Shown one piece after another: positions 804-63,812 of a DNA stretch of 64,000 nt (positions within the stretch are counted from its first letter, which is position 1; the number at the start of each line of letters is the position of its first letter). Source of the stretch: Terrabacter tumescens (GTDB lineage: Bacteria > Actinomycetota > Actinomycetes > Actinomycetales > Dermatophilaceae). The notes beneath the pieces are model-generated. The model was not told the origin of the DNA and made no database searches. It worked only from the letters and a program-made list of their open reading frames with translations. Position numbers and translations under genes: made by a program. The stretch is taken from the NCBI RefSeq assembly GCF_014646815.1, contig NZ_BMNZ01000006.1, positions 358,989 through 422,988 on the forward strand, read 5' to 3'.

Positions 804-2909
804 TCAGCGCCGTCTCAGGCTGAGACGCACGAGGCCGTATGCCGCGTCGTCGGCGCGCGCCCGTGACGCCGCCTCCCGCATCCGTGCGTTGACGTCGCCG
901 TCGAGGTCGCCGATGAGCACGAAGCCGAGGTCGTGGGCACGGGCGAGGATGCCGCGCACGTCGGCCGGGCCGACCGCGCCCTCGGCCGCACGCGGGCCGA
1001 TCGGGATCGTCAGGACGAGCAGCCCGCCCGAGCGCAGCGCCCACGACGCCTGCTCGAGGACGTGGTCGACGTCGTCGGCATCGCAGCCGCTGGGGTGGAT
1101 GCGCACGATGACGTCGAGCGAGCCGGTGTCGACGTCGAGCGCCGCCACGCTCGGGTGCGACCCGGTGAAGTCGATCTCGACCGGCGCGAAGCCGACGGCC
1201 CGGGCCCACCGGGACAGCAGGGACCGCGTCCCGCCCTCGTCGACGATGACGGCGCTGCGCCGGCCGTCGTCGCGGACCCGCAGGATCGCCGCCAGCGCCC
1301 CGAGCGCCGCCCACGCCGAGACGCTGTCGAGCGAGCGCGGCAGCCCGAGGATGCGCGAGAGCCGGCGGGCGTCGTCCGCCTCGTCGGGCTCGCCGAGCAC
1401 GTCGGTGGCGAGCACCCAGTCGGGCAGGTCGTCCGGGCGCAGGGTCACGAGGGGGCGCCGTGAGGCGACGGCCCGGGTCACGCTGCGCCGCACCCGTCCG
1501 GCCGCGTGCCGTGCCGCGCCCGCGACGACCCGCGCCTGTCGGGACACCGGGCCTCGGACGGGGTCGTCACCGTCGCCGTCATCAGGATCGTCGTCGTCCA
1601 AGCCGTCCTCGGGACCGTCACCGGAGTGCGGGTCGGGCGTGACGGCATACGAACCCGTGTCACCGAGCAGCACGGTCTCGTCGACGGAGAGCGCCTCGAG
1701 GGTGCCCAGGTAGTGAGCCCACGGGCCGGAGAGGTCGGGCGTCTGCACGCCCTCGGCGAGGCGCCGGCGCACGTCCGGGTCGCCCAAGCGGCGCAACGCG
1801 CCCGCCAGCGCACGCTCGTCCTCGGGCGGCACGAGGAGGCCGTTGACGCCGTCGACGACCTGCTGGGAGAAGGGGGCGATGTCCGAGGCGAGCACCGGCA
1901 GTCCGTGCGCGTGGCCGAGGATGACGTTCTGCGACGCAGTGGCGGAGCGGTACGGCAGGGCGAGCACGTCGTGGTCGGCGAGGAGCGCGGCGAGGGCATC
2001 GGCGGGCACGTAGCCGTCGCGGATCTCGACGCGGCCCGCGAGCGCCGGGTCGGACGCGAGCCGGCTGATGACGCCGCGGTTGGCCCCCCAGATCTCGCCT
2101 GCGATGGTCAGCGTCACCTCGGGCACCGAGCGCATGGCCCGCAGCAGGACGTCGATGCCCTTGTACTCACGGATCAGCCCCAGGGCGAGCAGCCTCGTGG
2201 GACCCGGCCGAGGACCCCTGGCGATGGGGTCTCCCCCGGGCAGGTGCGGCGGCAGGTCGGCGACGGACACCCGGCGCGCCCCGAGGTCGTGCGCGACCCT
2301 CGCCTGATCGGTGCTGTGCACGAGGACCGAGTCGACCCGGGCGAAGAGCGCGGCCATGAGGCGGGAGTCGCCGACGTGCGGCTCGTGCGGGAGGACGTTG
2401 TGGCACACGACGACCGACTGCGGCCGCGGGCCGGCCAGACCCGGCACGGCCCCCGCTGCACGAAGCAGCGCGAGGTGGGCCGGCACGACCGCGGGCATGA
2501 CGTGGACCACGAGGATCGCGTCGACGTCGCGCAGGCGGCGCCCGGCGCGCAACCACGTGTCGGGGCGGGCCCAGCTGAGGGCACGGATCGTGCGTGGGAA
2601 CGGCGGGACCTCAGGGAGCCCGTCGGGCACCGACGCGTCCGCGTGGTGCAGCTTCGAGGGGTAGAGGTGGGCCCACGACACGAGCGTGACGTCGTGACCG
2701 GCGTCCGCCAGGTGGTGGGCGAGCATCGTCGTGTGCGCGGCGACCCCGCCCTTGTGCGGGTGGGTCGGGCCGACGATCGCGATGCGGAGCGCGGCGGAGG
2801 CCGTGGAGTCGTCGGCCTCGGGCACGGACTCGAGGTGGGATGCGGCTCCGGGAGCCCCGGAGGACTGGTGGCCCCGCAACAGGGAGCCCTGTGACAACGC
2901 GTCCGTCAT
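804..2909 (-). CDS. Two-domain protein: GT4 glycosyltransferase fused to a SAM-methyltransferase-like domain
   Basis: 701 residues. Residues about 40-410 form a GT-B glycosyltransferase of family GT4: the N-terminal IVGPTHPHKGGVAAHT glycine loop, then LLALGLIREYKGIDVLLRAM and a donor-site region with LPVLASDIAPF. A very acidic linker (about 418-445, Asp/Glu/Gly runs) joins it to a C-terminal domain (about 480-700) that reads like a class I methyltransferase: SAVIVDEGG, then VIVRIHPSG, then a WALRSGGLLVLTIPIGPR strand typical of motif IV/post-motif. The canonical glycine-rich SAM loop is weak, so this half may be degenerate. A TAGAGT -10 box (2924-2919) and a GGAG just before the ATG support the start. 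It probably modifies a lipid-linked surface glycan; acceptor unknown. Confidence 0.8.
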   Translation of the reverse strand: MTDALSQGSLLRGHQSSGAPGAASHLESVPEADDSTASAALRIAIVGPTHPHKGGVAAHTTMLAHHLADAGHDVTLVSWAHLYPSKLHHADASVPDGLPEVPPFPRTIRALSWARPDTWLRAGRRLRDVDAILVVHVMPAVVPAHLALLRAAGAVPGLAGPRPQSVVVCHNVLPHEPHVGDSRLMAALFARVDSVLVHSTDQARVAHDLGARRVSVADLPPHLPGGDPIARGPRPGPTRLLALGLIREYKGIDVLLRAMRSVPEVTLTIAGEIWGANRGVISRLASDPALAGRVEIRDGYVPADALAALLADHDVLALPYRSATASQNVILGHAHGLPVLASDIAPFSQQVVDGVNGLLVPPEDERALAGALRRLGDPDVRRRLAEGVQTPDLSGPWAHYLGTLEALSVDETVLLGDTGSYAVTPDPHSGDGPEDGLDDDDPDDGDGDDPVRGPVSRQARVVAGAARHAAGRVRRSVTRAVASRRPLVTLRPDDLPDWVLATDVLGEPDEADDARRLSRILGLPRSLDSVSAWAALGALAAILRVRDDGRRSAVIVDEGGTRSLLSRWARAVGFAPVEIDFTGSHPSVAALDVDTGSLDVIVRIHPSGCDADDVDHVLEQASWALRSGGLLVLTIPIGPRAAEGAVGPADVRGILARAHDLGFVLIGDLDGDVNARMREAASRARADDAAYGLVRLSLRRR

Positions 2910-2918
2910 GGTGCTCCG

Positions 2919-3001
2919 ACTCTAGTTGCCGGCGTCCGCCGTGGCGTGTGCTGCCGTGCGGGCCTCGCGTGTCGGGACCGGGGCGCCGACGCCTCTACGC
3001 T
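2919..3001. promoter_or_regulatory. Divergent promoter pair
   Basis: On the minus strand TAGAGT (2924-2919) lies 9 nt before ATG 2909. On the plus strand TACGCT (2996-3001) lies 7 nt before ATG 3009, the spacing expected of a leaderless transcript. No convincing -35 box is visible on either side. Confidence 0.5.
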
Positions 3002-3008
3002 GGGGGCC

Positions 3009-3695: not shown

Positions 3696-4120
3696 GCCGA
3701 CAGAGTGTCATCCAGATCCTGCTCATCCTCGCGACCGTCGTCATCGCGTGGCGGCTGCTCGCCGGCAGCGGTCAGCGCACGCAGGCGGTGCGCCGTCTCG
3801 GGCTGCTGCTGCTGCTCGCGCTCGTCGTCTACTCGATCATCGACCCGAGCAAGACGTGGACCAACCTCGCCAAGACGCTCGGCGTCGGCCGCGGCGCCGA
3901 CCTCATCCTCTACGGGCTCGCAGTCGCCTTCCTCGGCTTCGTCGTGACGACGTACAAGCGCTTCCGCGCCATGGAGACGCGCTACACCCGCCTCGCCCGG
4001 CGGATCGCCCTCGACGAAGTGCCACCGGCGTCCGAGCACGTGAAGTCGACAGGTTCGGCTGCCACACTGTCCGGCGAAGTTCCTCCGTCCCCGAGCGTGA
4101 AGGCAGCCGATGCCGACTGA
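3692..4120 (+). CDS. DUF2304 small membrane protein
   Basis: 142 residues. A hydrophobic segment starts right after MSRQS (QILLILATVVIAWRLLAG), a second follows at LGLLLLLALVVYSII, and a third at LILYGLAVAFLGFVVTT. A cytosolic charged helix (YKRFRAMETRYTRLARRIAL) and a low-complexity tail complete it. This layout matches DUF2304 proteins, which sit next to GT2 glycosyltransferases and are presumed membrane partners of them. The start ATG overlaps the stop of the GT2 gene by 4 nt and its own end overlaps the LCP gene by 11 nt, so the three genes are one translationally coupled unit. The molecular function of the family is not established. Confidence 0.8.
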   Translation: MSRQSVIQILLILATVVIAWRLLAGSGQRTQAVRRLGLLLLLALVVYSIIDPSKTWTNLAKTLGVGRGADLILYGLAVAFLGFVVTTYKRFRAMETRYTRLARRIALDEVPPASEHVKSTGSAATLSGEVPPSPSVKAADAD

Positions 4121-5276
4121 TCCGAGCACTCCTCGCCCCGGCCGCGACGACGCGTACGTCGTCGACACTCGGCGCCGCCCGAAGCGCGCCGGTGCCGGCA
4201 GCGACGTCGACGTCGTCGACACCCGCGAGGGTGGGGGCAGGCGTGGTGGTCCCGGCGACATCCCCGAGCGCGAGCCGCGCCACCGCCGGCGCAAGGGACG
4301 CATGGTGCTCATCGCGCTGCTCGTGCTGCTCCTCGCCTGGATCGGCTTCATGGTCTGGGTGCCCATGCAGGCCTGGGGCTCGGTCAACAAGGTCGACAAC
4401 ATCCCCGACGGCGAGCGACCCACCGACACCTCGGGCTACAACTACCTGCTCGTCGGCTCCGACAGCCGTGAAGGCCTGACCAAGGAGCAGCGCAAGAAGT
4501 ACGCCACGGGCAACGCGGCCGGCAACCGGACCGACACGATCATGCTCGTGCACGTGTCCGAGAGCGGCGGCAAGCCGGTCATGGTCTCGCTGCCGCGCGA
4601 CTCCTACGTGCCGATCCCCGGCCACGGCTCCAACAAGATCAACGCCGCCTACTCCATCGGCGGGCCCAAGCTGCTCACGAACACCGTCGAGCAGGTCACC
4701 GGCATCCACGTCGACGGCTACGTCGAGATCGGCCTGGGCGGCTTCGCCGCCGTCGTCGACAGCGTCGGCGGCGTCGACCTCTGCGTCGCGCGCGACATGA
4801 AGGACAAGCTGGCCGGGATCGACCTCAAGAAGGGCTGCCAGACGCTCGACGGCGGCAACGCCCTCGGCTACGTCCGCTCCCGCCACGAGGACCCGCTGGG
4901 CGACATCGGCCGCGCCGCACGCCAGCGCCAGTTCCTCGGCGCGCTCATGAAGAAGGCCGCGACGCCGTCGACCGTGCTCATCCCGTGGCGCTACAAGAGC
5001 TTCGCCGACGCCTCGGCGGCCGGCCTCGCCGTCGGCACGCAGACCGGGATCATGGATGCCGTCCGGGTGCTCCAGGCGATGCGCTCGGTGAGCAACGACG
5101 AGGGCCTCTCGCTCTCGGTGCCGACGTCGAACCTCGCCTACCGCACGAGCGGAGGAGCCCTGGCGGTCAAGTGGGACACCGAGCGCGCCAAGGCGCTCTT
5201 CACCGCCCTGAAGAACGACGAGCCGCTGACCGAGCCGCCTCCCGGCACGACGGTCGAAGGAGCGAAGAACAGCTGA
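4110..5276 (+). CDS. LytR-CpsA-Psr (LCP) family cell-wall polymer ligase
   Basis: 388 residues: a 65-residue Arg/Asp-rich cytosolic tail, one membrane segment (MVLIALLVLLLAWIGFMVWV), then an extracellular LCP domain. Diagnostic blocks are NYLLVGSDSRE, NRTDTIMLVHV, VSLPRDSYVPIPG with SNKINAAYSIGG, GFAAVVDSVGGVDLCV and LGYVRSRHEDPLGDIGRAARQRQF. The conserved Asp/Arg residues that bind the pyrophosphate of polyprenyl-linked substrates are present. LCP enzymes transfer teichoic acids, arabinogalactan or capsule from a polyprenyl carrier to peptidoglycan. That function fits the teichoic-like and nonulosonate loci in this window, although this gene is not inside either. ATG follows an AAGG at a good distance and overlaps the DUF2304 gene. 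Confidence 0.92.
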   Translation: MPTDPSTPRPGRDDAYVVDTRRRPKRAGAGSDVDVVDTREGGGRRGGPGDIPEREPRHRRRKGRMVLIALLVLLLAWIGFMVWVPMQAWGSVNKVDNIPDGERPTDTSGYNYLLVGSDSREGLTKEQRKKYATGNAAGNRTDTIMLVHVSESGGKPVMVSLPRDSYVPIPGHGSNKINAAYSIGGPKLLTNTVEQVTGIHVDGYVEIGLGGFAAVVDSVGGVDLCVARDMKDKLAGIDLKKGCQTLDGGNALGYVRSRHEDPLGDIGRAARQRQFLGALMKKAATPSTVLIPWRYKSFADASAAGLAVGTQTGIMDAVRVLQAMRSVSNDEGLSLSVPTSNLAYRTSGGALAVKWDTERAKALFTALKNDEPLTEPPPGTTVEGAKNS

Positions 5277-5304: not shown

Positions 5305-6084
5305 ATGAGCGCGCCGCTGACCCTGCCCTCCGGCGTCCTGGCCCGGATGGTCGCCTCCGACCCCGGGCGGCCCCGTCTCACGTGGTACGACGACGGTCCG
5401 GGACCGACCGCAGGCGAGCGCATCGAGCTGAGCGCCCGCGTCCTCGCCAACTGGGTGTCCAAGGCGGCGAACCTGCTCCAGGACGACGCCGCCGCGGGAC
5501 CCGGCACGACGGTCGGGCTCGACCTGCCGGCGCACTGGCGATCCCTCTACTGGGCGCTCGCGACGTGGTCGGTCGGCGCGACGGTCGTGGTCTCCTCCGT
5601 CGGGGACGGATCCGACGGGGACGGATCCGACGGGGACGGGTCCGAGGTGCTCGGGGCCGACGTGCTCGTCACCGACTCTCCCGCAGCCGCTGCGGGGCAC
5701 GGCGGGGACGCGGTGCTCGTCTCGCTCCCGGCCCTGGCCCGCAGCCACCCGGAGGCCGGCGAGGCACCCGGCGCCGTCGACGAGGCCCGTGAGCTCGCCA
5801 CCCACGGCGACCTCTTCTCCCCCATGTCGGACCCCGAGCCCGGCGACGTCGCCCTGGTCGCGGGAGGCGTCGACACGGCATACGGCTCGGTCGTCGTACC
5901 CGAAGACGGGTGGGGGCCCTCGCCCCGCGTCGCCCTCGCGGGCGGGCTCGAGCGCGTCCTGCGCGCCGCCCTGGCCGCCTGGTCGGCCGACGGGTCGATC
6001 GTGCTCGTGCGCGGTGACCGCACCGACCTCGCCGACCGCTTCGCGTCCGAGGGTGTCAGCGTCGACGCACGCGAGAACGCCTGA
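5305..6084 (+). CDS. TIGR03089 family protein (truncated AMP-binding-like)
   Basis: 259 residues. The N-terminus (LTWYDDGPGPTAGERIELSARVLANWVSKAANLL) and LDLPAHWRSLYWALATWSVGA resemble the first part of acyl-AMP ligases, but the adenylation signature and the C-terminal lid are absent. This is how the uncharacterised actinobacterial TIGR03089 family looks. Members commonly sit beside LCP genes, as here (29 nt downstream). A variable Gly-Asp-Ser stretch near residue 100 is encoded by three 15-bp tandem units. The gene converges on the peptidoglycan-binding gene with an 11-nt gap. The function of the family is unknown and no catalytic activity can be assigned. Confidence 0.8.
   Translation: MSAPLTLPSGVLARMVASDPGRPRLTWYDDGPGPTAGERIELSARVLANWVSKAANLLQDDAAAGPGTTVGLDLPAHWRSLYWALATWSVGATVVVSSVGDGSDGDGSDGDGSEVLGADVLVTDSPAAAAGHGGDAVLVSLPALARSHPEAGEAPGAVDEARELATHGDLFSPMSDPEPGDVALVAGGVDTAYGSVVVPEDGWGPSPRVALAGGLERVLRAALAAWSADGSIVLVRGDRTDLADRFASEGVSVDARENA
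5602..5646. repeat. In-frame 15-bp tandem repeat x3
   Basis: Unit GGGGACGGATCCGAC at 5602-5616, again at 5617-5631, and a third copy with two changes at 5632-5646. It encodes GDGSD repeated inside the TIGR03089 gene. Confidence 0.95.
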
Positions 6085-6095: not shown

Positions 6096-8006
6096 TCACG
6101 CGGACAGCCGGTCGAAGAGCGACCACGTCCGCGAGGCCACGACGCCGGTGCTCGCCAGCCCGGCACGCGCCTGCGCCGCCTTGACGGCCTCACGCGTCGC
6201 GAGGTCGAAGACACCCGTCTGGCGCACGCCGAGGAGCCGCTGCACGGCCACCACCTGCGGTCCCGTGTCGCCGGCGCGCAGCACCGTGGACCGGTCGGCC
6301 ACGAAGGGGAAGTCACGCGCCTCGAGCACGTCCCAGAGCTCGGGCGTCACGACCCCCGTCTGCGGCACGGCCAGCGACCGCTGGAGCGAGACGACCTTGT
6401 CGCGCGTCACCGTCCCGAAGACGCCGTCGACCGCGAGCCCGCCCAGGGCCCGCTGCAGCACGCGCACCGCGGCACCGCGTGAGCCGGGCGCCAGCATCAG
6501 GCTCTTGTATGCCGTGTAGGTCGTGCCGACGTCGACGCTCGCGACCCCGGGGCTCGTGCGTGACGGCGTGCTGGCGTAGGCGGTCATGGCGGGGACCCTT
6601 CCGGTCGTGCTGGTGGTGCTGACGGCGCTCACGGTGCTGACCGCGCCCGCGGGGGACGCCGAGGGCGGGCTCACGAGCACGACCGCCCTGGCCGTGCCGG
6701 TCCATCCCCGCAGGAAGAGCGTCTGCTGAGTCCTCGCGTCCGCGACGCCGGTCTGCGGCAGGCCGACGTACCGCTGGTAGGCCTTGACGCGGGCCTCCGT
6801 CAGGCTGCCGTAGTAGCCCGTCGTCGGCAGCGCGCCGAGCTTCGACTGGAGCGTCTTGACGGCAGCCGAGGTCATGCCGACGCGCAGGGTCGGGTAGGTG
6901 GGGGCCGGAGCGGGCGCTGCCGCGGTGCCGGTCCAGCCACGCACCCAGAGCCGGGCCTGCGTCACCGGGTCGGCGATGCCGGTCTGCGGGAGGCCGACGA
7001 ACTTCTGGTAGGCCGTGACCCGGGCCTGGGTCAGGCTGCCGTAGTAGCCTGTCGTCGGCAGCGCGCCGAGCTTCGACTGGAGGGTCTTGACCGCGGCGGA
7101 CGTCGTGCCGGGCCTCAGCGTCGGGTAGGCGTCGGTGACGCTCTTCCAGCCGCGAGCCGCGAGGATCTCCTGGGTGCGCAGGTCCGCGATGCCCGTGCGG
7201 GGCAGGCCGACGAACGCCTGGTAGGCAGTGACCCGCGCCTTGGTCTGGTCACCGTAGTAGCCCGTGGTGGGCAGGTTGCCGAGCCGGACCTGCAGCTGGC
7301 GCACCGCCTCGGACCGCATGCCCGGCGACAGCACGACGGGCGTCGTCGGGACGGGCGTCGTCGGCGTGGTCGGCGTCGAGGGCGGCGTCGTCGGGAGCGT
7401 CGACCCGGCGCGCGGGAGCGACGTGAGGTAGCTCGTGGTCGGGACACCGGTCCACCACGAGGTACGCCCCGCGGCGCCGTCGTAGTTGAAGCTGAAGTGG
7501 ATGTGGTCGGTGTGGGGAGAGCTGCCGTAGTAGGGCGCCCAGCCGCGCTCGGTCGCGTACGCCCGCCACATCTTGCGGTCGTGGATGATGTACATGATCC
7601 CGAACCGGCGCGCCATGGCGCCCTTGACGCCGTTCTTGTCCGGCCCGGTGAGCCAGGCGAGGACCGACTGCGCCACCGCCTCCTGCGAGGGGTTGTTCAC
7701 GTTGAGCATCCAGTCCCAGGCGCGCCCGTCGTAGTGCTCCGAGGGGCCGCTGCCGCAGGTGCGGCCGATGAGGCCCGTCGAGCCCATGCCGTAGTGCGCG
7801 GTCATGAGCCGGGCGAAGGCGAGCACCCCCGGCCGGGCGACCGGGTCGCAGATCGTCTGGCCCTGGTAGGGCACATAGACGTCGAGGCCGCTGGGCAGGG
7901 TGCGCGTCGGAGGGGCCTGGACCGCTGCCGCCGGCTGCGCCGCCACCGGCACCGTCAGCGCGGGAAGGGCGAGGACGAGGCCCAGCGGGCGTCGGCGCAG
8001 GGCCAT
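6096..8006 (-). CDS. Secreted peptidoglycan-binding protein with M15-like catalytic-type domain
   Basis: 636 residues. A signal peptide (MALRRRPLGLVLALPALTVP...) ends near residue 30. Residues about 35-185 form a domain with SEHYDGRAWDW and DHIHFSFNYDG; the His/Asp and His-x-His pattern recalls zinc ligands of M15-type (VanY-like) peptidases, and the region resembles the ARB_07466-like domain. A Thr/Pro linker follows. After it come five PG_binding_1 repeats of about 60 residues each, spaced by about 15-40 residues; the last two are the most divergent. It probably binds and trims peptidoglycan outside the cell. ATG 8006 is preceded by AGAGG at 6 nt and followed at once by the signal peptide, so longer upstream frames are rejected. 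Confidence 0.87.
   Translation of the reverse strand: MALRRRPLGLVLALPALTVPVAAQPAAAVQAPPTRTLPSGLDVYVPYQGQTICDPVARPGVLAFARLMTAHYGMGSTGLIGRTCGSGPSEHYDGRAWDWMLNVNNPSQEAVAQSVLAWLTGPDKNGVKGAMARRFGIMYIIHDRKMWRAYATERGWAPYYGSSPHTDHIHFSFNYDGAAGRTSWWTGVPTTSYLTSLPRAGSTLPTTPPSTPTTPTTPVPTTPVVLSPGMRSEAVRQLQVRLGNLPTTGYYGDQTKARVTAYQAFVGLPRTGIADLRTQEILAARGWKSVTDAYPTLRPGTTSAAVKTLQSKLGALPTTGYYGSLTQARVTAYQKFVGLPQTGIADPVTQARLWVRGWTGTAAAPAPAPTYPTLRVGMTSAAVKTLQSKLGALPTTGYYGSLTEARVKAYQRYVGLPQTGVADARTQQTLFLRGWTGTARAVVLVSPPSASPAGAVSTVSAVSTTSTTGRVPAMTAYASTPSRTSPGVASVDVGTTYTAYKSLMLAPGSRGAAVRVLQRALGGLAVDGVFGTVTRDKVVSLQRSLAVPQTGVVTPELWDVLEARDFPFVADRSTVLRAGDTGPQVVAVQRLLGVRQTGVFDLATREAVKAAQARAGLASTGVVASRTWSLFDRLSA
6780..7090. 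repeat. Near-identical internal DNA repeats encoding two peptidoglycan-binding modules
   Basis: The stretch reading gtcaggctgccgtagtagcc and the following 40 bases occurs near 6799 and again near 7031 with only a few changes. The second and third peptidoglycan-binding modules are therefore a recent duplication or are kept alike by gene conversion. Confidence 0.85.
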
Positions 8007-8310
8007 GGTGAACCTCTTCGACAGACGGGAAACGAGTGGTGATCCGGGTTTACTCCCGCACCATTTATGCACTCCAGTCACAGGGACCACAAGGCGGTCC
8101 GGTGAATTACAGAGGTGTTCTTCTGGCGCCCGTCGAATGACACGGCTGTCATTCACCGAGGCCTCCGGAGCGGCCTCCCACCGGGGCACGGACGTCGCCT
8201 CGGTCGCGTGGGCGGCCCCACGGCATACGTGCTCGGCGACCACAGGTCGGGCCGATCGTGTGGGTCGACCCCACGGCACCACGGCCCCGCCGCGCGGATA
8301 GAGTCCGGCC
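8007..8310. other. Divergent intergenic region, 304 bp
   Basis: This region is visibly richer in A+T than its surroundings around 8041-8160. Read on the minus strand it forms the leader of the peptidoglycan-binding gene, with two small stem-loops possible: GGACC with GGTCC (near 8084-8100) and CGGG with CCCG (near 8045-8060). The right side holds one GTATGCCG-type octamer (8221-8228) and the CoA-transferase promoter. I see no open frame or known riboswitch. Confidence 0.5.
8299..8304 (+). promoter_or_regulatory. -10 box, leaderless promoter of CoA-transferase operon
   Basis: TAGAGT followed by exactly 6 nt and then ATG 8311. No ribosome-binding site is present, so transcription probably starts at the A of the start codon. 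Confidence 0.55.
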
Positions 8311-12273: not shown

Positions 12274-14189
12274 GGGGAGCCATCCTCTCGGCCGTCGGAC
12301 CGGGCCCCGGCACCGGGGCCGGCCTGCGTCTGGTCGACGGCGCTCCCTCCGCGCCAGGCGCGAAGGGAGTCGGTCGCATGAACGGCGAGCACCAGGACGG
12401 CACCCACGAGGAGCGGGAGGGCGGGGGCATCGCTGAAACCGCCGACCAGGGCCAGGACGACGATGCGCCCCTCGACGCCCAGCGTCGCCCGGACCACCGG
12501 CCTCGGTGTGCCGTGTCCGGTCTCACGCAGACGGTAGACGTTGTCGTAGACGTGCCAGCAGACAGCGGCCAGCCACGCATAGGCAGCAGCGCCAGCAGCG
12601 GGATCGCTCCCGGCGGCGAGCAGCAGGGATGCCGCCTCGAGCCCGATGAGGATCCCGGGGACCTGCCAGCTGAGACGACGGCGGCCGGACGGTCGGGGCA
12701 GGACACTGAGGTCGACAAGATGCTCGAGCGTCGCATCCGGCCGCCCGGCGTGGAAGCCGTCCCTGCCTGACAGCGCTCTGGCCAGTCGACCCGCCTGGGT
12801 CCAGGCCAGGGCGAGCGCCGAGGCGAGGGCCAGAGCCCAGAGGAGCAGCTCGGGGCTGAAGGCGACCAGGGCGAGCGACATGACGAGGTACCGCTCCGCG
12901 ATCGGGAAGTGCAGAACCTGCTTGACGTCGCGGACGAGCCGGGTGCGCCGGGAGGACGGCCCGGGCACCACGGTGCTCGCCGCCGGCGGACCGCCGTCCA
13001 GGGGCTCGTCGAGTGGCACCTGCCGGGGCGCATCCATGGCCGAGGCTCGCCGCCGGGTCGTGTAGGCGAAGTCCTCGGCATGACGGATCGCGAGCAGTGC
13101 GAGCACGATGATCGCGAGCCACCAGACGTCGTTGCCCCGCCGCAGCGAGACCCACGCGACGGCAGCGAGCATGGTGAACTCCTTGACGCGGTCACTCACG
13201 GCGTCGAGCCATCCGCCCACCGCGCTCTTGCGTCGGGTGAAGCGGGCGATCTCGCCGTCGACGCAGTCGACGACGAGAGACATCTGGAGCACCAGGGCGG
13301 CGGCCACCCAGGTCCAGCGAGTGTCCACGGTGACCAGTGCGCACGCCGCCAGCCCGAGGAGCAGGCTGACGCCCGTCACGACGTTGGGGCTCCAGCCATG
13401 CATGAGGCCGTATGCCGTGAGGCGCCGGGAGAGCGGGCGTATCGCGTGCGTGGAGAAGACCCCGTCATTTCCGCGGGAGGCAGCCCGAAGTCGTTGCTGC
13501 CACGCTGAACCCGGCGCTCCAGGACGCTGGGCGGTCCCCCGCGCGACGGTGAGGTGGGTCAGCGGGACGGCGACCACCGGGACGACGGCGTCGCGGACCA
13601 CGGCAAGGAGCGCGAGGTCGATCGTCTGCATGCCCGACAGGCGTGCGGACTCGCTGGCCGCGGCCGCCCGAAGAGCCCGTGCCACCCGTGGACGGTCGGC
13701 CGCAGCAACGCGAAGCAGCCCGGCCGCATACGTGGTCGGTCCGCTCACCACGTGGTGCGCGGAGCCGGTCGACACCAGCCGGCGAGACATGTCGTCGACC
13801 CGCACGGGCGTGAAGCCGCCGGCCGGCCCCGAAGACGTGGCATGCCGAGCTCGGCTGAAGGGACCGTCGACGACGGCCGCCGACGTGGCGTCGTGCGGCG
13901 AGTCGAGGATGTCGAGGAGTCCGACGGGACTGATCCGCAGGTCGTGGCTGACCAGCACCAGAGGGCGGTCCGTCGACCCCGCTGCCACGTCGGCGGCCGC
14001 GACCAGCTGCGCCGACACGGTCGCCTGCGACGGCGCGCCATGCACCACCACCAGCGCGAACGGTTCGAGCGACTCGAGAAGGTCCTTCCCGGCGACGCCG
14101 CCCAACACGACCACGTCACCGCCCGATGACCACCCCTGCACGGCCCGAGCACTGGAGTCACCGACGAGCGGGCGCTCGTCCAGCCTCAC
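12270..14189 (-). CDS. Three-part protein: degenerate nucleotidyltransferase-like domain, CDP-alcohol phosphotransferase, extra membrane domain
   Basis: 639 residues. Residues 1 to about 240 look like a worn nucleotidyltransferase fold (RPLVLVSHDLRISPVGLLDIL is reminiscent of the strand carrying the metal Asp), but the GGxGxR nucleotide loop is missing. Residues about 255-470 are a CDP-alcohol phosphotransferase with an intact motif, DCVDGEIAR ... GGWLDAVSD. Residues about 490-610 form another polytopic domain (WHVYDNVYRLRETGHG), probably DUF5941-like. The order resembles archaeal/bacterial IPCT-DIPPS, in which a cytidylyltransferase is fused to its phosphotransferase. It sits in the teichoic-like chain with GTGA overlaps on both sides. 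The CDP-alcohol substrate is unknown. Confidence 0.75.
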   Translation of the reverse strand: MRLDERPLVGDSSARAVQGWSSGGDVVVLGGVAGKDLLESLEPFALVVVHGAPSQATVSAQLVAAADVAAGSTDRPLVLVSHDLRISPVGLLDILDSPHDATSAAVVDGPFSRARHATSSGPAGGFTPVRVDDMSRRLVSTGSAHHVVSGPTTYAAGLLRVAAADRPRVARALRAAAASESARLSGMQTIDLALLAVVRDAVVPVVAVPLTHLTVARGTAQRPGAPGSAWQQRLRAASRGNDGVFSTHAIRPLSRRLTAYGLMHGWSPNVVTGVSLLLGLAACALVTVDTRWTWVAAALVLQMSLVVDCVDGEIARFTRRKSAVGGWLDAVSDRVKEFTMLAAVAWVSLRRGNDVWWLAIIVLALLAIRHAEDFAYTTRRRASAMDAPRQVPLDEPLDGGPPAASTVVPGPSSRRTRLVRDVKQVLHFPIAERYLVMSLALVAFSPELLLWALALASALALAWTQAGRLARALSGRDGFHAGRPDATLEHLVDLSVLPRPSGRRRLSWQVPGILIGLEAASLLLAAGSDPAAGAAAYAWLAAVCWHVYDNVYRLRETGHGTPRPVVRATLGVEGRIVVLALVGGFSDAPALPLLVGAVLVLAVHATDSLRAWRGGSAVDQTQAGPGAGARSDGREDGSP

Positions 14190-14932: not shown

Positions 14933-15738
14933 CAGATCTCCTTGAGAACTGCAGGCTCGAGGCGCGAGAAGACGTAGGAGCCGACGAGCAGCAGGACGCC
15001 GGACACGATCGCCGACAGGACGATGGCCCGATGGTTCAGCTCGGCGGGGAAGAAGCCGGCGCGGTAGGCCTCCAGCACGCCGCTCATCGGGTTGAAGGCG
15101 AGGATCGTCCGCAGGCTCTCGGGCGCAGCGTGGACGCCGTAGATGATGGGCGTCGCGTAGAACCCCATCCGCAGCGCGATGCGCACGATGCGCGACGTGT
15201 CCGTAAAAAGCACGGTGATCGGCGCAAGAAGCAGTCCCAGCCCGACCTGCAGGAGGAACTGCAGGACGAGCCCTACCGGGAACCAGACGAGCTTCGAGTT
15301 GACGTGCCCTTGCCCGACAGCCACGAAGTAGATGGCAAAACCGGCAAGCACCGGGAGAGAGAGGACGAACTCGATCCCCTTGGCGAGGACGACCCGCACC
15401 ACCCACAGCTCCCGGGGCATGTTGGTCGAGCGGACCAGCCGGGCCTCGGCGATCAAGGCCCTGGCCGTCTCGGTCACACTCAGCTGGAACCACTGCCAGG
15501 CGAGGACCCCGATGACGATGAAGAGCACGTAAGGCTGGTAGCCCACACTTCGAGCTTTGAAGATGACCGTGAACACGACGAAGTAGATGGCCGCCATCGC
15601 CAAGGGGTCGATGATCGTCCAGAGGTATCCGATGGGGCTGCTCGCGTAGCGCACATGCAGGTCCCGACGAACGAGGGTCCACAGCAGCTGCCGCCGGCGG
15701 TAGAGCCCGCGCGTCTGCCGGGCAATGTTGACTGTCAC
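14932..15738 (-). CDS. Polysaccharide/teichoic-acid ABC exporter, permease (ABC-2, TagG/Wzm-like)
   Basis: 268 residues from GTG 15738. The N-terminus (LLWTLVRRDLHVRYASSPIGYLW) is the classic cytoplasmic start of Wzm/TagG permeases, followed by six hydrophobic segments and a final SYVFSRLEPAVLKEI tail. I prefer GTG 15738 (VTVNIARQTRGLYRRR, with AGGCAGG upstream) over a Met 26 codons earlier because the extension is proline-rich, unlike the family, and would enter the divergent promoter region. It heads the minus-strand operon and forms the exporter with the following ATPase gene. Confidence 0.88.
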   Translation of the reverse strand: MTVNIARQTRGLYRRRQLLWTLVRRDLHVRYASSPIGYLWTIIDPLAMAAIYFVVFTVIFKARSVGYQPYVLFIVIGVLAWQWFQLSVTETARALIAEARLVRSTNMPRELWVVRVVLAKGIEFVLSLPVLAGFAIYFVAVGQGHVNSKLVWFPVGLVLQFLLQVGLGLLLAPITVLFTDTSRIVRIALRMGFYATPIIYGVHAAPESLRTILAFNPMSGVLEAYRAGFFPAELNHRAIVLSAIVSGVLLLVGSYVFSRLEPAVLKEI

Positions 15739-15867
15739 GTGCCTGCCTGACTCATCGTGTGCCGGGTGTCCGGACGGTGGAACGGGATGGAGCGAGGCCC
15801 ACGGTATCGTGACCAACCGGCAGGTCCGGAACTCGTCACCACAACTACCCCAGGGGACCCCTCCAGC

Positions 15868-19820: not shown

Positions 19821-19833
19821 GCGCGGACAGGCG

Positions 19834-19877
19834 GACGGCCCCGGCCCGAGGCCAGACCGGCCGGGCCCGGAGCCGTC
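19834..19877. terminator. Bidirectional terminator hairpin
   Basis: Between convergent genes: GACGGCCCCGGCCCG (from 19834) pairs with CGGGCCCGGAGCCGTC (ending 19877) with a bulge and one mismatch. Very stable, with no U-tract. Confidence 0.55.
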
Positions 19878-19905
19878 CCCGTATCGCGCTCACCGGGGGC
19901 GTCCT

Positions 19906-22386: not shown

Positions 22387-22534
22387 CGGGTCCGGACTCC
22401 TTCATCGTCTCGCTCGAGGTCCGGCGGACCCGAGACGCCCGCCATCGTACTGACCACGCCCCGGCCCCTCGACCTCGGTGCACGACACCCGAGGGCCCGG
22501 CGGGACACCGCAGCAAGCGTGTCGCGGGCGTCTG

Positions 22535-22540
22535 TAGAGT
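22535..22540 (+). promoter_or_regulatory. -10 box upstream of the DUF6541-like gene
   Basis: TAGAGT about 45 nt before GTG 22586. The leader ends with GGAGAG, a normal ribosome-binding site, so this gene is not leaderless. Confidence 0.45.
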
Positions 22541-22585
22541 CTCTGGGGCGCAGACCACGACAAGACCATCGGAGAGTGTGAAGCG

Positions 22586-50920: not shown

Positions 50921-50949
50921 GACCGACCCGAGGGCGTATGCCGTCGGTC
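50921..50949. terminator. Hairpin between convergent genes, with a GTATGCCG octamer in the loop
   Basis: Stem GACCGAC (50921-50927) with GTCGGTC (50943-50949). The loop contains GTATGCC (50936-50942), and the octamer's last G is the first stem base. Confidence 0.5.
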
Positions 50950-55257: not shown

Positions 55258-56106
55258 TCAGCGACCGGGCCAGACGGGCCGACGCTTCTCGGCGAAGGCG
55301 GCGACGCCCTCGCGCCGGTCGCCGGAGAAGGCCGTGGCGCGCCAGCAGCCGTCCTCGATCTCGAGGCCCGCGTCGAGGCCGACGTCGGCGCCCAGACGCA
55401 TCGCGCGCTTGGCGTTGCGCAGCCCAACGGGCGAGTTGGCCGCGATGGTCCGGGCCAGCTCCAGGGCCGCGTCACGGGCCGAGCCGGCGGGCACCACCTC
55501 GTCGACGGCTCCGAGCTCGAGGGCCTCCGCGGCCGAGAGACGCGCGGCGCTGAAGATCGCGCGGGCCGCGCGTGACCAGCCGACCCGGCGCACGAGCAGC
55601 TGCGTCCCACCGCCGCCCGGGATGACGCCGACGCTCACCTCGGGCAGCCCGACCACCGCGCCCTCCCCCGCGACGACGACGTCGCACGACAGGGCCAGCT
55701 CGAAGCCGCCCCCGAGGGCGAAGCCGTCGACCGCCGCGATGGCCGGCACGGGCAGGTCGAGCACGCCGCCGTAGGCCGCCCGCGCGACGGGACGCTGCGC
55801 CATGAGGTCGGCGTCGGAGAAGGCGTTGCGCTCCTTGAGGTCGGCACCGACGCAGAAGGCCTTGGCGTGGCTCGACGTCAGCACGACGCAGCGCACGGTC
55901 TCGTCGGCGGCCACCTGCGCCGTCGCCGCGGCGATGGCGCGCGCCATCTCCGTCGACACGGCGTTCATGGCCTGCGGGCGGTCGAGGACGATCTCGGCCA
56001 CGTGCGCGAGGCCCGGGTCCTCGAAGCGCTCGACGCGGACGAGGGGGGCGAGGCCGGTGGCGTCGGCCCCGGTGGGCGCAGTGGGCGCAGTCGGCGTTGA
56101 CGGCAT
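55258..56106 (-). CDS. Enoyl-CoA hydratase/isomerase
   Basis: 282 residues. Crotonase fold: HVAEIVLDRPQAMNAVSTEM, the CoA/oxyanion segment AFCVGADLKERNAF, VDGFALGGGFELALSCD (first catalytic Glu position and oxyanion glycine) and GLPEVSVGVIPGGGGTQLL (second catalytic Glu). Both Glu residues used for hydration are present, so hydratase activity is likely. The first 25 residues form a Pro/Thr/Ala-rich tail. ATG 56106 follows AGGAG at 8 nt. It lies 20 nt after the cyclase gene on the same strand. The start codon is embedded in a GTATGCCG octamer. Confidence 0.92.
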   Translation of the reverse strand: MPSTPTAPTAPTGADATGLAPLVRVERFEDPGLAHVAEIVLDRPQAMNAVSTEMARAIAAATAQVAADETVRCVVLTSSHAKAFCVGADLKERNAFSDADLMAQRPVARAAYGGVLDLPVPAIAAVDGFALGGGFELALSCDVVVAGEGAVVGLPEVSVGVIPGGGGTQLLVRRVGWSRAARAIFSAARLSAAEALELGAVDEVVPAGSARDAALELARTIAANSPVGLRNAKRAMRLGADVGLDAGLEIEDGCWRATAFSGDRREGVAAFAEKRRPVWPGR

Positions 56107-56126
56107 ACGTCGGTCTCCTTCGGGGC

Positions 56127-57375: not shown

Positions 57376-58293
57376 TCATGCCAGTCCGCCGGCCGCCGGT
57401 CGGACGTGGACGACGTCGCCGGCAGCGAAGGTCCTCAGGCCATCCGCGGTGCGCACCACGAGCCCCCCGTCGTCGTCGACCGACTCGGCCGTGCCCTCGG
57501 CCGCACCCCCGGCGGGCAGGTGCACACGCACCTGCAGACCGAGGGTGGAGCACGCCTCGCGGTAGGCCGTCCGCGCCGCCTCACGCGCGGCGGTCCCCGA
57601 CCCACGGCCTTCGTGCACGCCTGTACCCGACCGCCCCCCAGCGCCCGCCCCTGCGAGCACGTCCGTCAAGTGGTCGAGGTAGGCGAGCAGCAGGTCCTCG
57701 CGGCGCACCCGACTGCCCGCGAGGGCGAGCGAGGTGGCCGTGTCGACGGGCACCTCGTCCCTGGTCTGGTCGACGTTGACGCCGGTCCCGACGACGACCG
57801 CCTGGCGGCCCCCCGAGGTGACGAGCTCGCAGAGGATGCCGCTCAGCTTGCGGTCGGCGTCGTCGGCGAGCAGCACGTCGTTGGGCCACTTGAGGCGCGC
57901 CGTCAGGGGGTGCCCCGCTGCCCCGGTCACGTCGCGCACGGCACGTGAGAGCGCGAGCCCGGCCAGCAGCGGCATCCAGCCGGCCTGGGCGGCGTCCGCG
58001 ACGGGCACCGCGACGCTGACGGCGAGAGACGCCCGGTCGGGGACGGTCCAGGCGCGTCCCAGCCGCCCGCGCCCGCCGGTCTGGTGGTCGGTGAGGACGA
58101 CCCACCAGAGGCCACGGTCGTCGTCTGCGGGCGACACGGCATACGCCCCGCTCGTCGGGGACGACCCGGTGAGCAGCTCCCGCAGTCGGGTGTTGGTCGA
58201 CCCGAGGGCGGGGTGGAACTCGACCCCGCGCCACGGCCGTCCGGACGTGACCAAGGCCGCACTCACAGTCTCGATGTCGAGCGAATCGCGCAC
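57376..58293 (-). CDS. birA: Biotin-[acetyl-CoA-carboxylase] ligase
   Basis: 305 residues from GTG 58293; GTG 58299 is the alternative. [11 protein letters not shown] binds substrate, [19 protein letters not shown] is the biotinyl-5'-AMP loop, and [28 protein letters not shown] carries the catalytic KWPND Lys; [11 protein letters not shown] follows. There is no N-terminal DNA-binding domain, so it is the monofunctional class I type. It charges the biotin carrier of acyl-CoA carboxylases, whose beta subunit is divergently transcribed from an overlapping promoter. TAGCCT (58306-58301) lies 7 nt before GTG 58293. Confidence 0.93.
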
Positions 58294-60283: not shown

Positions 60284-62044
60284 ATGTCCGTCGACTCCAC
60301 ACCCACCGTCCGCATCGCGCAGCGCTACTCGCTGGGCGAGCGCATCGCCGTCGGTGGCATGGGTGAGGTCCACCTCGCGACCGACGAGCGGCTCGGCCGA
60401 CAGGTGGCCGTCAAGGTCCTCTCGCCCGCGTTCGCCGAGTCCCCGGACTTCGTCGAGCGGTTCCGTCGCGAGGCCCTGACCGCCGCGCGTCTCTCGCACC
60501 CGAACATCGCTCAGGTCTACGACTACGGCGTCGACGGCGCCTCCCACTTCATCGTCATGGAGTATGCCGAGGGCCAGGACCTCGCCCACGTGATCCGGGA
60601 GCACGGCCGGCTCACCCCCGCCGACGCCGTACGCGTCGCCGAGCAGGTCTGCGCCGCCCTCGCGACCGCGCACCGCGCCGGAGTCGTGCACCGTGACATC
60701 AAGCCCGGCAACGTCATCGTCCGGCCCGACGGCTTCGTCAAGGTCACCGACTTCGGCATCGCCCGCGCCCTCGGGCAGGCGTCGCTCACCGACACCGGCA
60801 CCGTCATGGGGACGGCCGCCTACGTCGCGCCCGAGCAGGCCCGCGGCGAGGCGACGACCCCGTCGTCGGACCTCTTCTCGCTCGGCATCCTGCTCTTCCA
60901 GATGCTGACCGGCGCCGTCCCGTTCGAGGGCGACACCCCTGTCGCGGTCGCGCTCCGGCACCTCGACGAGCCGGTCCCGCTGCCGAGCTCGCGGGTCGCC
61001 GACCTGCCGGCGAACCTCGACGAGGTCGTCGAGCGGGCCACGGCCAAGTCGCCCGCCGACCGCTACCCGGACGCCGACGCGATGGCGGCCGCGCTGCAGG
61101 GTCACGAGGTGTCCGCCGACGCCGCCACCCGGGCCATGCCGCTGGGCGAGGCGACCGCGGTCCTCGGCGCCGGCGCGGCGATGTACGGCGCGGGCACCAC
61201 CGCCGAGGCGGCGACGGCCGTCGGCAAGGACGCCACCCGCGCGTTGCCCAGCCCCGCACCCGACCCGTCCCTCAGCCCGGCCCTCAGCACAGCGAGGATG
61301 CCGGTCGCGCCCTCAGCGTCCGCAGCGCCCTCGAAGCCCTCGAAGCCCTCGGCGCCGTGGCCGGCCGGTGACGCCCCGACCCGCCGCTCGACCCTCGCCG
61401 AGCGGCGCCGGCCCTCCGGACCGGGAGCCGTCGTCTGGGTGCTCGCCGCCGCCGTCGTGGCCCTCGTCGCCGTCCTCGCGTACGTCCTGCTGTCGGGCTC
61501 GGACCCGGCCACCCCGCCCGCCGCCGGGCCCCGTCCCTCCTCGAGCGCCTCGTCGTCGCCTTCGACCCCGCCCACGACCGCTCCGCCCGCGGACGGCAGC
61601 GCCGTCCCCGCGGGCCTCGTCGGCCAGCAGCGCGAGGCCGCGGTCAAGCAGCTCATCGGCCTCGGCGTCAACGTCCGCTGGGTCCTCGTCCGCTCGCAGG
61701 AGCCCGAGGGTGCGGTCATGGGCTCGTTCCCCGCCGAGGGTCAGCCGATGGCCAAGGGGCAGACCGTGGCCCTCGTCGTCAGCCGCGGCCACGCGCCCGA
61801 CAGCGTCAACTCCTCGTTCGTCGTGCCCGACGGCCTCGCCGGCACCGATGCGAAGGACGCGGCCCGGACGCTGACGGGCGAGGACGTCCGGGTCACCCGC
61901 GTCACCATCCCGTCCGACGGCGGCGCGAAGGAGGGCCAGGTGCTGGCCACGTGGCCCGCGACCGGCAGCCGGACGACCGACGGGGTCGTGGTGCTCGTCG
62001 TGGCCGGCGGCGGCAAGGGCGCCTCCTCCGACCAGAGCGACTGA
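60284..62044 (+). CDS. PASTA-domain Ser/Thr protein kinase (PknB/StkP type)
   Basis: 586 residues. Kinase domain about 10-270: glycine loop GERIAVGGMGEVHLA, VAVKVL (ATP Lys), VVHRDIKPGNVIV (catalytic Asp), KVTDFGIARAL (DFG) and MGTAAYVAPEQARG. A Pro/Ala-rich juxtamembrane linker (about 280-380) and one membrane segment (VVWVLAAAVVALVAVLAYVLL, about 383-403) follow. Outside lie two PASTA repeats (about 440-508 and 510-582), which bind muropeptides in homologues. It probably links cell-wall status to growth and division. ATG 60284 lies 8 nt after TAGTCT (60270-60275), suggesting a leaderless start. Confidence 0.93.
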   Translation: MSVDSTPTVRIAQRYSLGERIAVGGMGEVHLATDERLGRQVAVKVLSPAFAESPDFVERFRREALTAARLSHPNIAQVYDYGVDGASHFIVMEYAEGQDLAHVIREHGRLTPADAVRVAEQVCAALATAHRAGVVHRDIKPGNVIVRPDGFVKVTDFGIARALGQASLTDTGTVMGTAAYVAPEQARGEATTPSSDLFSLGILLFQMLTGAVPFEGDTPVAVALRHLDEPVPLPSSRVADLPANLDEVVERATAKSPADRYPDADAMAAALQGHEVSADAATRAMPLGEATAVLGAGAAMYGAGTTAEAATAVGKDATRALPSPAPDPSLSPALSTARMPVAPSASAAPSKPSKPSAPWPAGDAPTRRSTLAERRRPSGPGAVVWVLAAAVVALVAVLAYVLLSGSDPATPPAAGPRPSSSASSSPSTPPTTAPPADGSAVPAGLVGQQREAAVKQLIGLGVNVRWVLVRSQEPEGAVMGSFPAEGQPMAKGQTVALVVSRGHAPDSVNSSFVVPDGLAGTDAKDAARTLTGEDVRVTRVTIPSDGGAKEGQVLATWPATGSRTTDGVVVLVVAGGGKGASSDQSD

Positions 62045-62105
62045 GCGCCGCCGCCGCGGGCCGCACGCGCGCCACAATGCACTGGCACGCATCCCGGGCC
62101 TGGAT

Positions 62106-62111
62106 TACCTT
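62106..62111 (+). promoter_or_regulatory. -10 box, leaderless promoter of the DUF885 gene
   Basis: TACCTT, then 6 nt, then GTG 62118. No ribosome-binding site. Confidence 0.5.
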
Positions 62112-62117
62112 CGCCGG

Positions 62118-63812
62118 GTGACCGACAACACCCAGACCGCGCGACCGCGCACCGATGTCGACCGCATCGCGGAGACCTACTTCGATGCCGCAGTCGCCCT
62201 CAGCCCCATCAACGCGACCTATCTCGGCGTCCCCGGTGGCGAGGAGGACCTCGACGACCTCTCGCCCACCGGCAACGCCGCCGCTTCCGAGCTGCGACGG
62301 GCGACCCTGGCCCGGCTCGGCGCCGCGGCCCTGGCCGACGACGTCGACCGGGTCACCGTCGCCGCCATGACCGAGCGCCTCCAGCTCGCCGTGGACCGGT
62401 ATGCCGCGGGGCTCGACGAGATGTCGCTCAACGTCCTCGCCTCGCCGCTCCAGAGCGTCCGGGACGTCTTCGACCTCATGCCGCAGCACACCGCGGACGA
62501 CTGGCGCGTCTTCGCGACCCGCATGGGCAAGATCCCCGCCGCCCTCGAGGGCTACCAGCAGTCGCTGCTCCTCGCCCGCGAGCGCGGGCAGGTCTCGCCG
62601 CGCCGGCAGGTCGAGGCCTGCGCGGAGCAGTCCCGCGACCTCACCACCGACGACGGCTACTTCGCCAAGCTCGTGGCCGACGCCAGCATCGGCGACGAGC
62701 CGCTCGAGCCCCAGCTGCAGGCAGCGCTCGCCGAGTCCGCGCAGGCCGCCGCCGCGGCATACGGCTCCATGGCGGACTGGCTCGAGCGCGAGCTGCTGCC
62801 GCACGCCCCCGAGGCCGACGCGTGCGGCCGCGAGCGCTACGCCCTCGAGTCGCGCTACTTCCTCGGGGCGACGGTCGACCTCGAGGAGACCTACCGGTGG
62901 GGCCAGCAGGAGGTCGCGAGCCTCCACGCCCAGATGAGCGAGATCGCCGACGGGCTCGAGTCCGGCGCCAGCGTCGAGCGCGGCGTCGAGATCCTCGACG
63001 CAGACGAGAAGTACCAGCTCCACGGCACCGACGCGCTCAAGGCCTGGATGCAGGAGCGCGCCGACGAGGTCATCGCGAACCTCAAGGACGTCCACTTCGA
63101 CATCCCGGGTCCCGTCCAGACCATCGAGTGCATGATCGCGCCGACGCAGACCGGCGGCATCTACTACACCGGGCCGTCCGACGACTTCAGCCGCCCGGGT
63201 CGCATGTGGTGGTCGGTGCCCAAGGGCAACACCGAGTTCCGCACGTGGAACGAGCTGACGACCGTCTACCACGAGGGCGTCCCGGGCCACCACCTCCAGG
63301 TGGCCCAGACGGTCTACCGCTCCGAGCTGCTCAACCGGTGGCGCCGCCTCGAGGCGTGGACCTCCGGCCACGGCGAGGGCTGGGCCCTCTACGCCGAGCG
63401 GCTCATGGCCGAGCTCGGCTACATGGACGACCCGGGCAACCGCATGGGTTGGCTTGCGGGACAGTCACTTCGGGCTGCACGCGTCGTCATCGACATCGGT
63501 GTGCACTGCGGCTTTGACGCGCCCGACGAGGTCGGTGGCGGAGCATGGGACTACGACAAGGCCTGGACCTACCTCACCCGCTACGGCTTCATGGACGAGA
63601 AGATCCTGCGCTTCGAGCTCAACCGCTACCTCGGCTGGCCGGGGCAGGCGCCGAGCTACAAGATCGGCGAGCGCCTGTGGCTGCAGCTGCGCGACGAGGT
63701 CAGGCAGCGCGAGGGTGACGCCTTCGACCTCAAGGCCTTCCACCGCCGCGCCCTCGACATCGGCGGCGTCGGGCTCGACACCCTCCGCGGCGCGGTCCTG
63801 CAGGAGATCTGA
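62118..63812 (+). CDS. DUF885 family protein (predicted metallopeptidase)
   Basis: 564 residues without signal peptide or membrane segment. The key motif YHEGVPGHHLQVAQ resembles the zinc-binding HExxPGHH signature of DUF885, supported by GHGEGWALYAERLMAELGYMDD about 30 residues later, where an acidic residue would complete the site, and by LAGQSLRAARVVIDIGVHC. Family members are predicted peptidases; few have been characterised. It probably acts in the cytosol on short peptides, but that is inference. GTG 62118 is fixed by a -10 box 6 nt upstream. Two GTATGCCG octamers lie inside (62399 and 62755). Confidence 0.88.
   Translation: MTDNTQTARPRTDVDRIAETYFDAAVALSPINATYLGVPGGEEDLDDLSPTGNAAASELRRATLARLGAAALADDVDRVTVAAMTERLQLAVDRYAAGLDEMSLNVLASPLQSVRDVFDLMPQHTADDWRVFATRMGKIPAALEGYQQSLLLARERGQVSPRRQVEACAEQSRDLTTDDGYFAKLVADASIGDEPLEPQLQAALAESAQAAAAAYGSMADWLERELLPHAPEADACGRERYALESRYFLGATVDLEETYRWGQQEVASLHAQMSEIADGLESGASVERGVEILDADEKYQLHGTDALKAWMQERADEVIANLKDVHFDIPGPVQTIECMIAPTQTGGIYYTGPSDDFSRPGRMWWSVPKGNTEFRTWNELTTVYHEGVPGHHLQVAQTVYRSELLNRWRRLEAWTSGHGEGWALYAERLMAELGYMDDPGNRMGWLAGQSLRAARVVIDIGVHCGFDAPDEVGGGAWDYDKAWTYLTRYGFMDEKILRFELNRYLGWPGQAPSYKIGERLWLQLRDEVRQREGDAFDLKAFHRRALDIGGVGLDTLRGAVLQEI

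Follow-up and report, generated by a model that had tools for sequence, protein, structure and literature searches.

The DNA that we analyzed is a stretch of 64 kb from Terrabacter tumescens, G000:C6:358989-422988, hereafter called the window. It lies on contig C6 of a genome of 4,707,860 bases in 23 contigs. The element in question is an octamer, GTATGCCG, which is scattered over both strands. A word search of the window found 23 copies, which are listed below with their positions in the window. Genes were called with our own crude caller, and the coding fractions given in this study are approximate for that reason.

837 to 844, plus strand: copy of GTATGCCG
1643 to 1650, minus strand: copy of GTATGCCG
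5876 to 5883, minus strand: copy of GTATGCCG
6507 to 6514, plus strand: copy of GTATGCCG
8221 to 8228, minus strand: copy of GTATGCCG
13410 to 13417, plus strand: copy of GTATGCCG
18812 to 18819, minus strand: copy of GTATGCCG
23449 to 23456, plus strand: copy of GTATGCCG
24852 to 24859, minus strand: copy of GTATGCCG
31724 to 31731, plus strand: copy of GTATGCCG
36352 to 36359, minus strand: copy of GTATGCCG
37288 to 37295, plus strand: copy of GTATGCCG
39083 to 39090, minus strand: copy of GTATGCCG
41059 to 41066, minus strand: copy of GTATGCCG
43928 to 43935, plus strand: copy of GTATGCCG
44222 to 44229, minus strand: copy of GTATGCCG
45332 to 45339, plus strand: copy of GTATGCCG
50936 to 50943, plus strand: copy of GTATGCCG, intergenic on the crude gene calls
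56101 to 56108, minus strand: copy of GTATGCCG, between genes on the crude gene calls
58137 to 58144, minus strand: copy of GTATGCCG
60562 to 60569, plus strand: copy of GTATGCCG
62399 to 62406, plus strand: copy of GTATGCCG
62755 to 62762, minus strand: copy of GTATGCCG

In dinucleotide shuffles of the window (n = 100), the mean number of copies was 0.81 and the maximum was 3. Under a third-order Markov model, the octamer was the most over-represented 8-mer of the window, with 23 copies observed against 1.21 expected. The first-pass annotation, made from the letters of the window, had given the same 23 positions and strands, and every one of them was correct; its estimate of about 2 copies from base composition was conservative compared with the shuffles. 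It was also right that 23 of the 24 heptamers GTATGCC in the window are followed by G and that 15 of the 23 copies have a leading C, that is, they read CGTATGCCG.

The placement of single copies relative to genes was partly different from that annotation. The copy at 50936 lies between genes as described, and is flanked by the short complementary arms GACCGAC and GTCGGTC, the second of which overlaps the last base of the word. The copy at 8221, which had also been placed between genes, lies inside a gene on our calls, and the copy at 43928, which had been read within a gene, lies between genes, as does the copy at 44222. For the copy at 56101, said to span a start codon, the letters fit the description: AAGGAG precedes the word on the minus strand, and the ATG of the copy may be a start codon. 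The gene calls, however, make this copy intergenic. The lower density noted at 10-22 kb is present as a dip, although it rests on just 2 copies. Within positions 15694-24721 of the window, which are unaligned to a congener and have a GC content of 68.9%, there are 2 sites in 9 kb.

In the whole genome, the octamer occurs 2358 times (1158 forward and 1200 reverse), and the reversed word 199 times (111 and 88). In 464 kb of the genome (C1:1-400000 and the window), 224 copies were found against 10.7 expected from a third-order Markov model, so that the over-representation stands against this model as well. When the motif was masked in building the model, 883 kb of the genome contained 427 copies where 4.0 were expected (9.7 with a model of order 4 and 12.9 with one of order 5). 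An apparent depletion of some one-mismatch words was rejected as an artefact, in which the motif itself had fed the Markov model; it was gone over with masking.

The excess does not depend on coding. Shuffling of synonymous codons within the called genes gave about 12 copies, compared with 149 observed. The observed and shuffled numbers were 3 and 0.23, 11 and 2.17, and 79 and 4.86 in the three sense frames, and 4 and 0.15, 32 and 3.16, and 20 and 1.38 in the three antisense frames. That is, the enrichment is not confined to one frame; all six frames are enriched. The density was 0.77/kb between genes and 0.41/kb in genes.

The octamer is asymmetric, differing from its own reverse complement. 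When the copies were counted in ten bins, each at most 50 kb long, the forward and reverse counts ranged from 7:13 to 15:10, and no consistent strand polarity was seen in these bins. The spacing of the copies on C6 was somewhat evener than random, with a coefficient of variation of 0.83. From 123 intergenic copies, hairpin copies included, we obtained a flank consensus of about 30 bp, reaching from about -11 to +18 when the first core base is numbered 0. Upstream, the consensus bases were C at position -1 (78% of the copies), A at -5 (44%) and G at -6 (64%); downstream, they were T at +8, right behind the core (55%), C or G at +12 (95%), and C or T at +18 (75%). In the 883 kb, successive copies within 80 bp of each other formed 14 inverted pairs and 1 direct pair. 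Long complementary arms surround several of the inverted pairs, for example at C1:54768, C1:187311 and C6:104401, as read from the letters without folding. Relatives were examined over 99 loci, of which some overlap or belong to one species; among the 741 copies there, the pairs closer than 60 bp were 24 inverted and 0 direct.

The sites are also conserved in place. In the alignment with contig C8 of G004, another Terrabacter species (321,080 bases, mean identity 85.7%), 121 of the 154 sites (79%) were identical, compared with 47.6% of 88,611 8-mers with three A/T. Among 650 words with at least 30 occurrences, only 9 were conserved better. The 33 sites that were not identical include 19 with a single change, and 8 of these read GTACGCCG in G004.

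All 8 congeners carry GTATGCCG, with 1423-2300 copies each. We defined genomes with at least 140 copies/Mb as motif-rich, and by this definition 82 of the 149 sampled genomes of the family Dermatophilaceae, our own included, are motif-rich; they represent 30 of the 53 genera and have at most 4724 copies. The forward fraction of the copies in these 82 genomes was 0.476-0.531. Among 290 genomes sampled from the same class but outside the family, inspection by eye showed no genome with more than about 55 copies/Mb. In the ComEC core, our strain has 91% identity to Terrabacter aerolatus, its adjoining relative among the named ones. In a ComEC tree of 104 rows, the octamer is found in most branches, including the deep one of Flexivirga/Metallococcus. 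Parsimony gave 20 state changes on this tree, in which three doubtful rows formed a separate state, many of the inner forks lack support, and the states of the named loci come from about 20 kb or less each. Because the octamer is both deep-branching and widespread on this tree, it is probably ancestral in the family and would then have been repeatedly lost or replaced. In Flexivirga (L159 and L166), GTATGCCG was found 26 times against 2.4 expected from the Markov model, GTATGACG 17 against 2.0, and GTATGGCG 10 against 1.9; position 6 of the word may be free in this genus.

Different words take the place of the octamer in some sister lineages, and we call these words dialects. In 40-kb samples of ten motif-poor genomes, other words were suggested in five, and counts over whole genomes bore out several of them; in samples of the same size there was no strong new word in G090, G095, G049 and G022, and only repeat-like words in G065. 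The word GGATGCCG has 1977 + 1972 copies in G034, where the reversed word has 140 + 149, and its totals are 3816-4480 in G024, G072 and G109 and 3619 in G123. The word GTACGCCG has 1942 + 1961 copies in G048, 4185 in G108, and about 2400-2600 in G056 and G088. G028 has 1204 copies (591 + 613) of GTATGCGG, and its word is better written as GTATGCG followed by C or G. Janibacter-like genera have CGAAGGGG, which looks like a separate word and occurs 1746-3180 times in 11 of the 149 genomes and fewer than 400 times in each of the other 138. In the Janibacter/Marihabitans loci that were sampled (e.g., L113, L140, L156 and L169), it is evenly divided between the strands (59/69), with GR before it and G after it; its close pairs are 12 inverted and 0 direct, some of them double-counted, as two loci overlap. 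Two dialects occur together in genus g45, in which G052 has 1217 copies of GTATGCCG and 2195 of GGATGCCG, and G109 has 361 and 4480, respectively. This genus is thus transitional between the two dialects.

We carried out the codon shuffle on 20-120 kb each of G048, G031, G088, G076, G032, G034, G024, G028, G090 and G049, and also on Humibacillus (L110 and L114), a metagenome-assembled genome (L119) and four Janibacter/Marihabitans loci. The dialect words were supported in most of these genomes. The observed and shuffled counts were 24 and 3.4 in G034, 21 and 3.5 in Humibacillus, and 24 and 4.4 in G048. They were 29 and 4.6 for GTATGCG in G028, 40 and 6.5 in Janibacter/Marihabitans, and 7 and 0.2 for GAATGCCG in L119. 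The support was weaker in G031 (42 and 14), G024 (19 and 5.3), G032 (10 and 4.5 for GTACGCCG) and G088 (30 and 10.3, with GTACGGCG and GTACGACG similar), and nothing clear was seen in G090 and G049. G076 favors GTACGRCG (52 and 47, against 17.8 each) over GTACGCCG (29 against 15.1). The dialects of G056, G084, G108, G111, G113, G062, G109, G123, G072, G052, G086, G074, G100, G118 and G110 were assigned by whole-genome counts alone, as were those of the Janibacter-like genomes except G045 and G130, both of which were sampled over 40 kb. In Phycicoccus-like genomes of genus g2, such as G009 and G090, GTACGCCG is 5-6 times as frequent as its reverse, yet in G090 it was found 4 times against 3.4 after codon shuffling. 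The reversed word is therefore a weak control for GC-rich dialects.

If GRC-GTATGCCG is aligned to GRC-GAAGGGGG, a register that is a reading of the flanks, all dialects would share G1, A3 and G5, and most of them would share G8; G8 as a base of every dialect is ruled out by the word of G028. For five words counted genome-wide, 36 of the 149 genomes are outside all of the rich lists. The lists for the words other than GTATGCCG were picked by hand from tables, and G027 and G092, which are among the 36, have intermediate numbers of GTATGCCG.

The octamer calls to mind the sequences that mark DNA for uptake by competent bacteria. Sequence-specific uptake has been placed in two families, the Neisseriaceae and the Pasteurellaceae (PMC5031613), and the uptake sequences of both lack orientation bias (PMC1939737). 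The DNA uptake sequence (DUS) of the Neisseriaceae has dialects, and two dialects can be present in one genome (PMC3630211). The words described here resemble that account of the DUS in their thousands of copies, in dialects differing by a few bases with bases common to all, in a two-dialect genome, and in relatives without any word (PMC3630211). Inverted repeats are said to account for about 10% of the known uptake sequences (PMC1939737), and here they account for 28 of 427 copies. Uptake sequences are also reported from transcription terminators. Compared with the DUS, the octamer differs in phylum and sequence, in being an octamer core and not a 10-12-mer, and in that the type IV pilus marker PilM is present in 5 of the 149 family genomes. 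The commonest Terrabacter form and AT-DUS have ATGCCGTC in common, which we take as a coincidence because the DUS core CTG lies outside it. The sequence of the Pasteurellaceae uptake signal sequence (USS) is unrelated to GTATGCCG. The USS of H. influenzae has A/T flanks, which are absent around GTATGCCG.

As to the likely uptake machinery, ComEC was found in 145, a T2SSE-type ATPase in 148, and TadE in 144 of the 149 family genomes. We rejected the presence of these genes as a discriminating trait, since they are near-universal, and we also rejected a link to the type IV pilus, since PilM is so rare. Our genome has a flp/tad locus on contig C12, with a Flp pilin, RcpC, a ParA-like ATPase, a TadA-type ATPase and two T2SSF proteins. 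A second locus, which is tad-1-like, precedes the window on C6 by about 17-21 kb. The tadA gene of this locus is interrupted by a low-GC insert of 5.5 kb (G000:C6:342213-347689, or L200:2213-7689, about 11-17 kb before the window), which encodes a STAND NTPase and an FkbM-type methyltransferase as well as a large serine recombinase. G004 has an insert of about 10 kb at a different point of tadA, and the recombinase of that insert is 27% identical to the one on C6. In G007, the 12 kb read contain only the last 163 residues of TadA, adjoining a recombinase with 38% identity, and tadA is probably split there too. G005 has a recombinase in the tad locus and no tadA within the 12 kb read, and tadA is uninterrupted in G001 and G003. 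That is, among six Terrabacter genomes, tadA is split in two, probably split in one, ambiguous in one (G005) and uninterrupted in two.

Tad genes serve in the transformation of another actinobacterium, Micrococcus luteus (PMC4322843), and our genome has a likely uptake machine of this kind, with comEC and two tad clusters, one of which includes flp. Transformation of M. luteus needs both of its tad clusters (PMC4322843), and the competence genes of many species are known to be interrupted by mobile elements (PMC4774983). Taken with the insertions into tadA, these reports give indirect support to the idea that the tad-1-like locus is a competence locus here. The terms 'uptake sequence' and 'sequence specific' are absent from the main text of the M. 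luteus paper (PMC4322843). Among titles and abstract openings in the open-licence literature, we found no report of uptake sequences in Actinobacteria, which does not establish their absence in print; in the same literature, we found no report of natural transformation in Intrasporangiaceae or of an uptake sequence in Janibacter, and among the matches listed for the letters of the octamer, all appeared unrelated from their titles.

Most of the sequence-level properties that we examined match those of uptake sequences. We therefore think it likely that in the Terrabacter lineage GTATGCCG serves as the core of a DNA uptake sequence, belonging to a Gram-positive family system that would be read by a Tad/Flp pilus. 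We propose that free DNA is recognized by its copies of the word through a receptor on the cell surface, for which a pseudopilin or some other component of a Tad/Flp competence pilus is the most likely candidate, and that DNA of close relatives would be imported preferentially via ComEA/ComEC and then recombined. Copies of the octamer would accumulate and stay because of this biased uptake. A change in the specificity of the receptor, followed by re-accumulation, would give rise to a new dialect. With somewhat less confidence, we favor the wider view that this is a third, independently evolved uptake system and the first in Gram-positives, which would be Dermatophilaceae-wide and Tad/Flp-read, with at least six dialects, switches acting as mating barriers, and a tadA that has been repeatedly broken.

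Several observations weigh against an uptake sequence. The strongest are that foreign DNA is not clearly depleted in the octamer, that near-matches are hardly enriched, and that genomes poor in the motif retain com and tad genes. Blocks larger than 2.5 kb that are unaligned to G004 have 17 sites in about 44 kb, a mild depletion at about 0.39/kb compared with 0.48/kb; this count excludes the last 57 kb, taken as beyond the shared contig. The 49 kb of phage TJE1, which infects Nostocoides jenkinsii, contain 2 copies (0.62 would be expected, and the reversed word also occurs twice), and its host has 34 in 40 kb, but the low count of the phage is weak evidence because its GC content is lower (57.7%). 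In our genome, 5-kb windows with less than 66% GC have 3 copies in 15 kb, compared with 0.52/kb at 71-73% GC, and these windows are not clearly foreign because the listed ones are all on C12, alongside tad and glycan genes. No plasmid record from the family by organism name was found among the matches listed. Known uptake sequences are described as showing a graded drive (PMC1939737), and the near-match profile of the octamer is sharper than that: in the 883 kb with the masked model, one-mismatch words numbered 598 against 431 expected (1.39-fold) and two-mismatch words 7871 against 7370 (1.07-fold). Genomes that are poor in all tested words keep ComEC and TadA-type genes, and gene presence thus does not predict the motif; 0 of 15 genes neighboring comEC separate 31 rich from 15 poor loci. 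The scarcity of PilM makes a Neisseria-type pilin receptor (ComP) unlikely, no candidate receptor was isolated, and our genome keeps the motif although tadA is broken in one of its tad loci.

The main rival explanation is that the octamer is the binding site of an unpolarised intracellular chromosome protein, acting in the nucleoid, segregation or repair, whose specificity drifts between genera. The fairly even spacing, the strand balance and the conservation in place fit such a protein, and the drift of dialects also fits a DNA-binding protein. We nevertheless consider it unlikely, since swapping thousands of sites would be hard without a copying bias, the 14:1 ratio of inverted to direct close pairs resembles known uptake sequences, and 36 genomes of the family stand outside every rich list. 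A polar site for recombination (Chi-like) or for a translocase (like KOPS or the FtsK recognition sequence, FRS) is far less probable still. An enriched octamer is of the same length class as Chi. However, Chi and the FtsK-orienting polar sequences (KOPS) are polar, whereas the bins showed no consistent strand polarity and the 82 motif-rich genomes had a forward fraction near one half. The balance over a whole genome is by itself compatible with polarity about an origin, and our 23 contigs have no map of origin and terminus.

The first-pass annotation had argued for selection at the DNA level, which is supported by the excess in all frames and between genes, the 79% conservation of sites and the dialects; among the functions that it proposed, an uptake sequence fits best. 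A repeat like the highly iterated palindrome 1 (HIP1) of cyanobacteria, a methylation-linked repeat or the modified self-tag of a defence system is improbable in our view. HIP1 is likewise an abundant, genome-wide and clade-restricted octamer, whose function is debated. It is palindromic, whereas GTATGCCG is asymmetric and has dialects that differ at several positions; a HIP1-like role therefore fits poorly. Genomes usually avoid the sites that restriction systems recognize, and such sites are not normally enriched, which speaks against a restriction site. In favor of a mutational bias or an effect of codon context without any function, part of the GTACG-type excess of some genomes lies in Tyr-Ala frames, as with GTACGCCG in G076 (29 against 15.1). 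For GTATGCCG, such an origin is close to excluded by the enrichment in six frames and in intergenic DNA of our genome, by the different words of sister genera, and by the 427 copies against 4.0 in the masked model.

Some other sequence features were observed. A SAM-IV riboswitch (Rfam RF00634, 100.9 bits) lies at 27106-27225 of the window, upstream of an open reading frame at 27313. The word CGGGGGAG / CTCCCCCG is over-represented in the 464 kb of our genome (92 against 23.3) and also in other family members (L070-L073, G095 and G090). Runs of at least 8 C or G are strongly over-represented in the loci of Janibacter melonis and Phycicoccus avicenniae (L113 and L181). In Pedococcus bigeumensis (L133), ACTGACCC occurs 14 times in 20.8 kb against 0.6 expected, and is possibly a local repeat.

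If GTATGCCG and its dialects are uptake sequences, sequence-specific uptake has evolved again, in the Actinomycetota and with another type of pilus. The lineages of the family would then offer natural replicates for asking why uptake sequences arise, how receptor and site change together, and whether dialects form the borders of species. The family includes the polyphosphate-accumulating bacteria of wastewater known as Tetrasphaera (PMC9123174), in which gene flow matters, and switches of dialect would act as mating barriers.

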